From Alphaproteobacteria bacterium (lineage in GTDB: Bacteria > Pseudomonadota > Alphaproteobacteria > UBA9219 > RFNS01), in assembly GCA_037200005.1 (NCBI GenBank), contig JBBCGY010000002.1, positions 186,001 through 250,000 of the forward strand: a DNA stretch of 64,000 nucleotides. Reading direction: 5' to 3'. A program made the translations under genes and the position numbers. Positions 10,539 to 14,904 of this stretch are shown here, piece by piece. Below the pieces are notes generated by a model. It was not told where the DNA came from. It searched no databases and was given only the letters and a program-made list of their open reading frames with translations. Each line of letters starts with the position of its first letter. Position 1 is the stretch's first letter.

Positions 10539-11654
10539 TTAAATCGTCGGCGCTGGGTTCTTTCGATGTATTTCGCGGTTTATATTTACGCCATCGGCCA
10601 GGGGAAGATTATATGCATGAGGTTCAGCGGCAGGCTGTTTCTCGGCAAGGGGAAAAGCCGCTCTGCTTAGTGTTGTTTTATAGATTTTAGTTTTTTTGTT
10701 CTCGGCAAAGATTCCCTGACAGTACCCGCTGACCTTAATAGTCCAAGGACTGGCAACTGTTGTATTCGATGGGGTATTCTTGTCGTATACGATAACGACT
10801 GTTCGTCCGTCTTCATCGCCGACCGCACGATGCACGGCACCTTGTTTGAGGTGGGGATTTCCGTCTATCATCTTTTTCCAATCACCCTCACTCAACAAGG
10901 CCTGAATATGACTGGTGATCATTCCTGCTGGCAAGGGCACCTCGGCCTTGCTTTTAGATTTATTATCCAGGTTTTTATCGATAGCGTAGGTCGTGCTAGA
11001 GTTTTTTAATCCATGAATGAACACTCTGTTCCAGCAAGGTTCTGTGGCCGAAGGGCTGAGAGAAATGGGTCCGCAATCGCTGTGCAGTCCTGCTCCCTGC
11101 GGCTCAGTCCGCGCCACTCTGATCTCCGACACTAAATTCTTTCGTTCTCCGCCTTCCAGCAGGCCTCGCGCCGCAAGATTGCTGATATGCTCGTCGATGA
11201 CGGGGTCGCGGTAAGGCTGTGCCGCGACGGCGCCCTTGTATTTCTGTGCGCCTCTGCCGGCATCAATATCCTCAAGCCCATTCTGGTGAATGGGACGCCA
11301 CGCCTGATCCTCATGACTGGAATCATGAAGAAGAACTCCGATCAGCCTGTCGGACCTATCGTCAGGATTGGCGGGATCGCGTCCGCGCGGCAGAGTCAAC
11401 ACGGCCGGATCATGGCTGAAAAACATCTGCTCATTCAGGGCAAAGGCCTTAAAGCTGTAGCCGTTTTGGTGGGTGATGGTGTGGTGCGAAAGATCGAGAT
11501 TTTCGCCGCCCTTTTTCCGATCCTGGAGCGCATCGACCCATTTTTCCATGGAGGCGCGCAGGGAGGAATTGTTGTCATAGGGCGCGCAGACATAATTCTT
11601 GAACGCCGCCCATGGAATCTCTGTTTGCAGCCCTGCATGATTGTCGAGCGACAT
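10539..11654 (-). CDS. Unrecognised 371-residue protein on the opposite strand between ribB and ribH
   Basis: No family is recognised. The ATG at 11654 is preceded by AAGGA, a plausible ribosome binding site close to the start. The product looks soluble, without signal peptide or membrane segments. It is rich in His, Asn and Asp in the first half, with HDSSHED around residue 110 that could bind metal, and ends in a Lys/Pro-rich tail. Its DNA looks richer in A and T than that of the neighbouring rib genes. It is convergent with ribB (7 bases apart) and divergent from ribH. It splits a normally compact riboflavin cluster, so it is probably an insertion. Coding potential rests on length, start signal and lack of a better frame. 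Confidence 0.6.
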   Translation of the reverse strand: MSLDNHAGLQTEIPWAAFKNYVCAPYDNNSSLRASMEKWVDALQDRKKGGENLDLSHHTITHQNGYSFKAFALNEQMFFSHDPAVLTLPRGRDPANPDDRSDRLIGVLLHDSSHEDQAWRPIHQNGLEDIDAGRGAQKYKGAVAAQPYRDPVIDEHISNLAARGLLEGGERKNLVSEIRVARTEPQGAGLHSDCGPISLSPSATEPCWNRVFIHGLKNSSTTYAIDKNLDNKSKSKAEVPLPAGMITSHIQALLSEGDWKKMIDGNPHLKQGAVHRAVGDEDGRTVVIVYDKNTPSNTTVASPWTIKVSGYCQGIFAENKKTKIYKTTLSRAAFPLAEKQPAAEPHAYNLPLADGVNINREIHRKNPAPTI

Positions 11655-12757: not shown

Positions 12758-14089
12758 TTACGGCGCGGGCGCGGCGGCCTTCAAATTCGTCCGCAGCTTG
12801 TCCGGCGCGCCGCAGATAATCGAGAGGTGCCCGCCTACGAAGGCGCGCTTGGGAACATCGCCGCTCGTCGCGCATTTCACCAAACCGATATCGGCGGGAT
12901 TGCCCGCCTCGATTTGATCCTCGGGCTTGGCATTACGATCCTTGCCGCAGCCGATCGCAAGCTCTCCCTTGGCGTCTATGTAAATGCGCGGATATTTTCC
13001 TGGATTTTCGACGCATTGCGCGTCGCCGATGCGCGTCAGGACGGGAGCGCCGATATCCGCTTCGCGGACGACTTTTCCGGGTTTGATAATAATGGGCTCA
13101 TGCGATGCCGGCGCCGGGGCCGTCACCACGACAACCGGAGCCACCGCTTTCGGCGTTACGGCAGGCGTCGCGTCGCCGATCCTGGCGACGACAGGCGTAT
13201 CGGGCAGCATGGAGACGTTCGCGAATCCCTTATCGAGAATTGTCCGCATTTTCGTATCGCGATTGACCTTGGATTCCCCGAACACGACGCCGACGAGGCG
13301 CACGCAATGCTTAGCCTCGTCACAGCGTTCTGCCGAGGCCACCAGATTATGACCGGAGGCGTCGACATAGCCGGTCTTGCCGCCATCCATGCCCTCGTAA
13401 TGTTCCTTCGTCATCAGATTGACGTGATTGGCGTAGGAATGGCCGTTGATAACCGCCGAGGGCGTCTGAAAGAGCTTATATTCTTCCGGAAAATCGGCGA
13501 TCAGGCGGCTCATCAAAATGGCCATGCTCCGCGCCGTCGTCTTCTGCTTGGGATCGGGCAAGCCGGAAGCATTGCGGAAGACCGTGTTTTCGCTCATGCC
13601 GATTTTCTTGGCTTTGGCGGTCATCATGCTTGCGAAATTTTTCTCGCTGCCGCCGACGGCCTCCGCCAATACGACGGCGGCATCGCAGCCGGAATGCACG
13701 ATCTCGGCTAAGATAGCGTCGCGCACCGAAATCGTCTGGTCTTTCTTGAGCTTGATGTCGAACGCGCCGCCTTCTCCGGCGGCTTCCGCCGCGGCGGAAA
13801 CCGTGAGCGGCTGCTCCATCGTCAGCTTGTTACTGTGAATCGCTTCAAAGGTCAGATAAAGCGTCATCAGCTTCGCGGTCGAGGCGGGATGGCGCAGCTC
13901 GTCGGGATTTTCCGCGTGCAGAACGCGACCGGACTTGGTCTCGATGACGATGGAAGCTTTCGGCCCGTCTCCGGCGCGCGCGGTTGGCGCATAAAGAGCG
14001 CTCGCGGTCATTACGCCCATCGCGGTCAATTGCCGCGTGTGCCCGCAGACCCAATTGGTCGCCTTGTCAAAAATATCAGTAATCGCCAT
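12758..14089 (-). CDS. D-alanyl-D-alanine carboxypeptidase (S11 family) with altered SxN motif
   Basis: Penicillin-binding protein that trims peptidoglycan stem peptides in the periplasm. Length is 443 residues. A hydrophobic leader ending near ALYAPTARAG suggests export. The S11 motifs are S70-T-A-K73 (nucleophile and base) and K238-T-G240 (in MDGGKTGY), but the middle motif, normally S-x-N, reads S133-G-C135. The codon is clearly TGC, so Cys replaces the Asn that positions substrate. A region of about 140 residues after the catalytic domain is alanine- and proline-rich, then has several cysteines; I recognise no SPOR repeat in it. It is convergent with nusB, one base apart. Confidence 0.87.
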   Translation of the reverse strand: MAITDIFDKATNWVCGHTRQLTAMGVMTASALYAPTARAGDGPKASIVIETKSGRVLHAENPDELRHPASTAKLMTLYLTFEAIHSNKLTMEQPLTVSAAAEAAGEGGAFDIKLKKDQTISVRDAILAEIVHSGCDAAVVLAEAVGGSEKNFASMMTAKAKKIGMSENTVFRNASGLPDPKQKTTARSMAILMSRLIADFPEEYKLFQTPSAVINGHSYANHVNLMTKEHYEGMDGGKTGYVDASGHNLVASAERCDEAKHCVRLVGVVFGESKVNRDTKMRTILDKGFANVSMLPDTPVVARIGDATPAVTPKAVAPVVVVTAPAPASHEPIIIKPGKVVREADIGAPVLTRIGDAQCVENPGKYPRIYIDAKGELAIGCGKDRNAKPEDQIEAGNPADIGLVKCATSGDVPKRAFVGGHLSIICGAPDKLRTNLKAAAPAP

Positions 14090-14221: not shown

Positions 14222-14788
14222 TCAAGCTATTTCTTTTATACGTTTACATATCGCTCGCAGCAATGTCTCAACATTCTCTGCGCCCTTGCCATAATCGACC
14301 ATCGTGGTTGTGAGTATTGGAGCGCTTCTGATTTTAATGTTTGTTGCATTTTCTGCTGGTGCGACAATTATTGTTATTTTCTCTCCCCAGCTTCGCCATG
14401 TTGCGCTAACTCTCGCCTCAATGCGACCAGAGGAAGCATCCGCACTTATAATTTGGGCTTTTCTAAGCGAACCTATAGCGTCTTTACATGTCATGAACGC
14501 TATGGCTTGTGTATCCGAGATCAGCACTTCCCTATCCTGAATAGGATTCGTACATTCGACATTGAACCCTTTTAATTTGAGGCGTTTTTTTTCTCTAGAA
14601 TTCAGCCAGGACATGCAGCCGCCAAACAATGCACCTGTAATAACGCCACCAACGAGAGGGGCAATTATCTCGCCGCTTTGAAGAAAAGAAAAAACAGCCA
14701 TCACGCCGCCGAAATATACCCCTGTCCACAAACCGATGTGTTTCTCTCTCAATCGTAAGAGAGCAGTCTTTCTGGCGCTTATAGACAT
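14222..14788 (-). CDS. Small membrane-anchored protein of unknown function
   Basis: No family is recognised. I start at the ATG ending at 14788 (188 residues) because AGGAGG lies seven bases upstream; an ATG six bases earlier is too close to it, and a longer frame would run into the tRNA-Arg gene. Two hydrophobic segments are visible, about residues 22-38 and 43-60, the second rich in glycine (LVGGVITGALFGGCM). A basic turn REKKRLKLK and a soluble domain of about 115 residues follow, with beta-like strands such as KITIIVAP. A membrane anchor with a cytoplasmic domain is inferred. It shares its strand with the tRNA and the complex I gene upstream. Confidence 0.65.
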   Translation of the reverse strand: MSISARKTALLRLREKHIGLWTGVYFGGVMAVFSFLQSGEIIAPLVGGVITGALFGGCMSWLNSREKKRLKLKGFNVECTNPIQDREVLISDTQAIAFMTCKDAIGSLRKAQIISADASSGRIEARVSATWRSWGEKITIIVAPAENATNIKIRSAPILTTTMVDYGKGAENVETLLRAICKRIKEIA

Positions 14789-14827
14789 TCGCATGCCTCC
14801 TGTCAGACGACGCTTAAACGTCCGTAT

Positions 14828-14904
14828 TGGCGACCCCGGCGTGACTCGAACACGCAACATCCTGCTTAGAAGGCAGGTGCTCTATCCAGTTGAGCTACGG
14901 GGTC
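14828..14904 (-). tRNA. tRNA-Arg, anticodon UCU
   Basis: A 77-base cloverleaf read on the minus strand. The acceptor stem is GACCCCG paired with CGGGGTC, the D arm has TAGCTCAACTGGATAGAGC, and the anticodon loop CTTCTAA gives UCU. The T arm contains the GTTCGAGTC loop. Discriminator G and an encoded CCA are present. UCU decodes AGA/AGG, which are rare in this DNA. Confidence 0.95.

Follow-up and report, generated by a model that had tools for sequence, protein, structure and literature searches.

A third, diverged S11 serine DD-peptidase paralogue with a K15-like S-G-C motif in an alphaproteobacterial genome

A single open frame, running from ATG to stop and encoding 443 amino acids, was found on the minus strand at 12758-14089 of the window (the whole stretch of 64,000 nucleotides that was analysed). 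Its translation matched the Peptidase_S11 family of Pfam (PF00768; E 1.6e-56), with a score of 191.9 bits that passed the curated cut-off of 27.6. The gene and its parts are listed below, with the basis of each assignment.

12758..14089 (-): the whole gene, an S11 paralogue (serine DD-peptidase / penicillin-binding protein) with S-G-C, 443 aa (Pfam match and native codon usage)
13970..14089 (-): probable signal peptide, aa 1-40, with a hydrophobic run to A-R-A (judged visually on the translated sequence)
13274..13960 (-): Peptidase_S11 catalytic domain, aa 44-272 (Pfam; the model matches PBP6, PBP5 and K15 structures)
13871..13882 (-): motif 1, S70-T-A-K73, with the nucleophile and the general base (translation and alignment)
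13685..13693 (-): motif 2, S133-G-C135, Cys at the position of Asn in relatives (translation, alignment and pattern surveys)
13370..13378 (-): motif 3, K238-T-G240 (translation and alignment)
13304..13324 (-): beta-hairpin bearing Cys256 and Cys262, lengthened by an insertion compared with relatives; candidate disulfide (alignment column counts)
12761..13054 (-): C-terminal orphan segment (aa 346-443) with four Cys, beta-rich by prediction and perhaps made of two similar halves (low-confidence model)

The three motifs named in the original prediction (STAK at residues 70-73, SGC at 133-135 with codon TGC, and KTG at 238-240) were confirmed by translation, and Ser70, Lys73, Ser133 and Lys238-Thr-Gly were all present. 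S70-T-A-K73 supplies the serine nucleophile and the lysine of the S-x-x-K motif of S11 enzymes, and K238-T-G240 corresponds to their K-T-G motif. S133-G-C135, encoded by TCC GGC TGC, belongs to S11 when the second motif is defined as S-x-N, or S-x-C as in Streptomyces K15; with Cys135 it falls outside the classical, PBP5-type definition, in which Asn is the third residue. The claim that S11 enzymes carry S-x-N at this place held for the surveyed relatives, with Streptomyces K15 (S-G-C) as a known exception (1ES5 row of the classification in PMC12073871). Promoter and terminator scans of the gene gave no signal usefully above that of shuffled sequences.

In the window, nusB is followed by the S-G-C gene, which lies on the opposite strand and adjoins tRNA-Arg(tct), a tRNA gene also located near NdufS4 in G001-G003. 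In G002 and G003, two sister-family genomes, the gene after nusB encodes a small protein with a signal-like N-terminus. Comparison of these neighbours thus places the S-G-C gene at a junction that is absent from the sister-family genomes. Two other open frames were observed nearby on the minus strand. One, of 371 aa (10539-11654), has no Pfam match, a GC3 of 0.56 and a poor codon score; it separates ribBA from ribH, two genes with a 4-base overlap in G003, and is a lineage-specific insert in the rib operon. The other, of 212 aa (14222-14860), has a GC3 of 0.42, a strongly non-native codon score and a sub-threshold match to DUF6404; its listed start overlaps tRNA-Arg(tct) (14828-14904), and it is possibly foreign DNA beside the tRNA.

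Three S11 loci were identified in the genome (2.36 Mb, two contigs): the S-G-C gene, a paralogue with SLTK and SAN motifs and a C-terminal SPOR domain (C1:894448), and a paralogue with SMSK and SGN motifs (C2:509303). The S-G-C gene is a third, diverged S11 paralogue. All 33 genomes of the order yielded S11 matches, none of which, apart from the protein itself, exceeded 54% identity to the S-G-C protein. In an alignment of 58 rows (the query, three self copies, and 54 relatives or pieces of them, lower-scoring matches being only partly included), column 135 held Asn in 53 of the 54 relatives and a gap in the other, which is a fragment. The branch of the S-G-C protein was long (0.66; the median for terminal branches was 0.245), and its placement in the tree was unsupported (bootstrap 29-40). 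A whole-protein search of genome contigs for orthologues retrieved two Desulfobulbus proteins only, both S-A-N. With the protein as query no viral contig was matched, and an alignment query recovered two distant viral S11 proteins (S-G-N and S-A-N). None of 188 plasmid records covered 80% of the query, all being below 60% identity; the best named plasmid matches were to Azospirillum and Sinorhizobium, as would suit an alphaproteobacterium. The sister-family genome G003 has a third S11 paralogue of its own (L066, G003:C155), in which K-S-G replaces K-T-G and several other conserved positions are changed.

To describe how often Cys occurs in motif 2, we used a degenerate DNA pattern for S-[G/A]-C-D in an S11 context, a narrow one that S-x-C in a different context would escape. 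It matched three rows among 385 class genomes and three among 398 phylum genomes, two sets that overlap (G413-G771 being new in the phylum set). The only true S11 S-[G/A]-C was the window gene, with one row in each set; for the other four rows (G047, G316, G480 and G485), phmmer gave no S11 match in the open frames of their loci. A scan with W-R-Y as the third codon of motif 2, in 115 class genomes, returned 106 rows, including 82 SGN and 20 SAN, assigned to S11 by motif context, as well as 1 CAN and 1 SGC, the latter being the window gene. Two rows were not S11 (G047, with an in-frame stop, and G072, a histidine-kinase-like frame). The CAN row (L104, G097:C181:57200-59000) is a frame-broken S11 piece with C-A-N for S-A-N in motif 2. 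The Cys of the original prediction is genuine rather than a product of chance, and it stands out in these class and phylum genome samples. In the literature on S-x-C in S11, K15 was the sole case found: the structural classification in PMC12073871 has the Streptomyces K15 DD-transpeptidase, with STTK, SGC and KTG, as the sole member of its subgroup and its only S-G-C example. The S-G-C site is real and uncommon in the lineage, yet precedented by K15.

The nearest PDB sequences were E. coli PBP6 and PBP5-type proteins, and K15 chains were also matched (E 3e-5 to 6e-4). An AlphaFold2 model built from a five-row alignment had a mean pLDDT of 58.4, with block values of 75-93 (residues 41-100) and 77-92 (residues 111-200), and lower values on the KTG side. 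Compared with the PDB, this model has the beta-lactamase / DD-peptidase fold (Z 24.9-33.8 for the listed rows). Its core aligned with K15 structures over 235-238 residues, with an rmsd of 2.0-2.1 Å and a Z of about 30; PBP6 and PBP5 were slightly better, with a Z of about 33. In 2003, Rhazi et al. reportedly observed that C98N in K15 lowers transpeptidation and increases both hydrolysis and acylation by beta-lactams; they are also said to have proposed that Cys98 plays the role that Asn has elsewhere. The suggestion that the Cys changes activity or beta-lactam response fits K15, for which PDB titles record solved structures of the C98A and C98N mutants (1es3 and 1es4). The crystal structure 1SKF of the K15 enzyme has been interpreted as containing a Lys38-Cys98 NOS bridge, said to be likely to inhibit catalysis (PMC8964421).

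The protein contains eight cysteines (15, 135, 256, 262, 359, 381, 406 and 426). Cys15 lies within the signal region, Cys256 and Cys262 flank the beta-hairpin insertion (53 of the 54 relatives have a gap at column 262), and the last four are in predicted strands of the C-terminal extension. Six of them could pair as three disulfides, which would leave Cys135 as the sole thiol of the mature protein. The genome encodes DsbB and a DsbD-type reductase (DsbD_N, TM and thioredoxin domains), and thus both disulfide-forming and thiol-reducing functions of the envelope.

The C-terminal extension, which had been described as unexplained, contains four cysteines and belongs to no Pfam or NCBIfam family, and its PHROG match was weak (E 0.018). 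No match to SPOR (PF05036) was obtained at E up to 1 with either the whole protein or the C-terminal part; the protein is therefore not one of the S11-SPOR proteins of the class, which carry SPOR at the C-terminus, as does its own SAN paralogue. In the 385 class genomes, only the gene itself was above noise for this segment (the next, G043, had E 8.7e-4), and the best match to a PDB sequence had an E of 0.33. By eye and by strand pattern, the C-x21-C and C-x19-C halves suggest an internal repeat, which is not established, since the alignment score of the halves was equalled in 268 of 5000 shuffles. A single-sequence model of the segment (mean pLDDT 58.1, too weak to judge fold novelty) gave no matches with Foldseek (E 0.001) or VIA-align (Z of at least 2). 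At a guess, the extension is a disulfide-stabilised structural part for binding or anchoring.

Whether the gene is maintained was considered from its conserved positions and codon usage. Among 54 positions at least 90% conserved in 48 SAN relatives, 46 were kept; the eight changes were L71T, T72A, L112I, G117D, A134G, N135C, D188S and N223V, four of which are inside motifs 1 and 2, with others, such as D188S and N223V, elsewhere in the protein. In leave-one-out controls, the positions retained were 54/54, 53/54, 54/54, 45/55 and 50/56, so that the loss lies between the main SAN line and a divergent side paralogue in G003. The codon score was 0.205 for the whole gene and 0.224 for the C-terminal part, whereas both shifted sense frames scored negative and one antisense frame 0.087. 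This native usage along the full gene also excluded a recent foreign gene. A sequencing or assembly error at the Cys135 codon appears extremely improbable: although Asn is present in 53/53 relatives with a residue at column 135, passing from AAC or AAT to TGC or TGT takes two base changes, hence two adjacent errors, and the neighbouring residue 134 differs too (Ala in the SAN group, Gly here). Asn in related proteins had been put forward as a sign of such an error; it is indeed found in the relatives compared, but these are paralogues or distant homologues of about 50% identity, and their Asn is therefore no proof of one. A second Asn filling the site was searched for and excluded by Gly134, the invariant Asp136 and a gapless alignment at this point. 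A relaxed or decaying duplicate, in which the Asn-to-Cys change was neutral, seems quite unlikely, even though the gene is a paralogue of a retained SAN enzyme, has a long branch and occupies a junction absent from sister-family genomes. The frame is full-length, codon usage is native through the C-terminal part, and decay is unlikely because 46/54 conserved positions are kept together with that usage. The other parts of the active site are intact, as the original prediction stated for the two other motifs. The two-base codon change and native codon usage argue that the gene is maintained, and the same change in Streptomyces K15 points to an unusual variant and not to a gene that has broken down.

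On the analysis presented here, the gene probably encodes an exported, active, lineage-specific serine DD-peptidase of S11 with a K15-like S-x-C, whose specificity would be altered and whose Lys73-Cys135 pair is likely to be sensitive to oxidation. The protein would be exported and, by analogy with K15, still acylated by substrate and beta-lactam. Its balance would be shifted as in K15, with less hydrolysis, more acyl transfer and slower acylation by many beta-lactams, and the lone thiol beside Lys73 would make it sensitive to oxidation via an N-O-S bridge or sulfenic acid. Three points weigh against this account: with 24% identity to K15 over the core, the context of Cys135 may differ; eight conserved positions are changed, including D188S and N223V; and the long branch could reflect relaxed constraint. 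D188S, N223V, the long branch and the C-terminal segment, an orphan at the position of SPOR in the paralogue, also favour a pseudo-enzyme or binding protein that would acylate poorly or never and bind peptidoglycan or partners, with that segment as the interacting part. We regard this as rather unlikely, as the nucleophile, base, Ser133 and KTG are all present; the earlier suggestion of a protein acting mainly by binding is unsupported because K15, with the same S-G-C motif, is described as a transpeptidase. A redox-gated penicillin-binding protein, in which Cys135 was selected as a sensor, is possible but on the doubtful side. Under oxidative stress, a Lys73-Cys135 N-O-S link or oxidation of Cys135 would remove the base and stop the enzyme, and DsbD-fed reductant would restore it. 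Such gating would be consistent with the NOS assigned to the equivalent pair of K15, with Cys135 alone among the mature cysteines lacking an evident partner, with the DsbD-type reductase, and with the protection of single-cysteine periplasmic transpeptidases by E. coli DsbG, as stated in PMC3526765. However, a reaction seen in a crystal does not prove that a switch operates in the cell, the gene had no redox gene as its neighbour, and the protein is known from one genome.

The S-G-C enzyme, probably in a Gram-negative, would be a second example of this motif, phylogenetically distant from K15. It makes testable the idea that Asn-to-Cys has led more than once to a peptidoglycan enzyme that leans towards transpeptidation or is gated by oxidation. 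The K15 NOS bridge is a crystal observation (PMC8964421). More speculatively, and with rather little expectation that it is so, an independently evolved K15-type Lys-Cys pair in a Gram-negative penicillin-binding protein might act as a valve through which redox conditions control the trimming of peptidoglycan; structural disulfides would hold the remainder of the protein fixed, leaving the active-site thiol as the only sensor of the redox state of the envelope.

Compared with K15, the S-G-C protein has the same motif set (S-T-x-K, S-G-C and K-T-G), which makes its site K15-type, a Lys-Cys pair at the same motif positions (Lys73/Cys135) and, in the model, the same catalytic-core fold. K15 entries in the PDB, with 257-262 residues, are without a C-terminal segment of this type, and identity over the aligned core is low (24%, versus about 50% to SAN relatives, in a comparison whose tree is without actinobacterial S11). 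The K15-type S-x-C site may well have been reached independently of K15. E. coli PBP5 and PBP6 (DacA and DacC) have the S11 fold and were the best structural matches, PBP6 also being the best PDB sequence match, but they have an S-G-N motif and another C-terminal part. The S-A-N peptidases of the class, including the genome's own paralogue (C1:894448), have the same motif order, and the nearest of them share about 49-54% identity in the catalytic domain; the S-G-C protein differs from that paralogue by STAK/SGC in place of SLTK/SAN and by the lack of a SPOR match, and from the aligned relatives by the Cys256-Cys262 hairpin insertion. Overall, the protein is nearer to the SAN-type S11 relatives of its own class than to K15, with which it has the S-G-C site in common.
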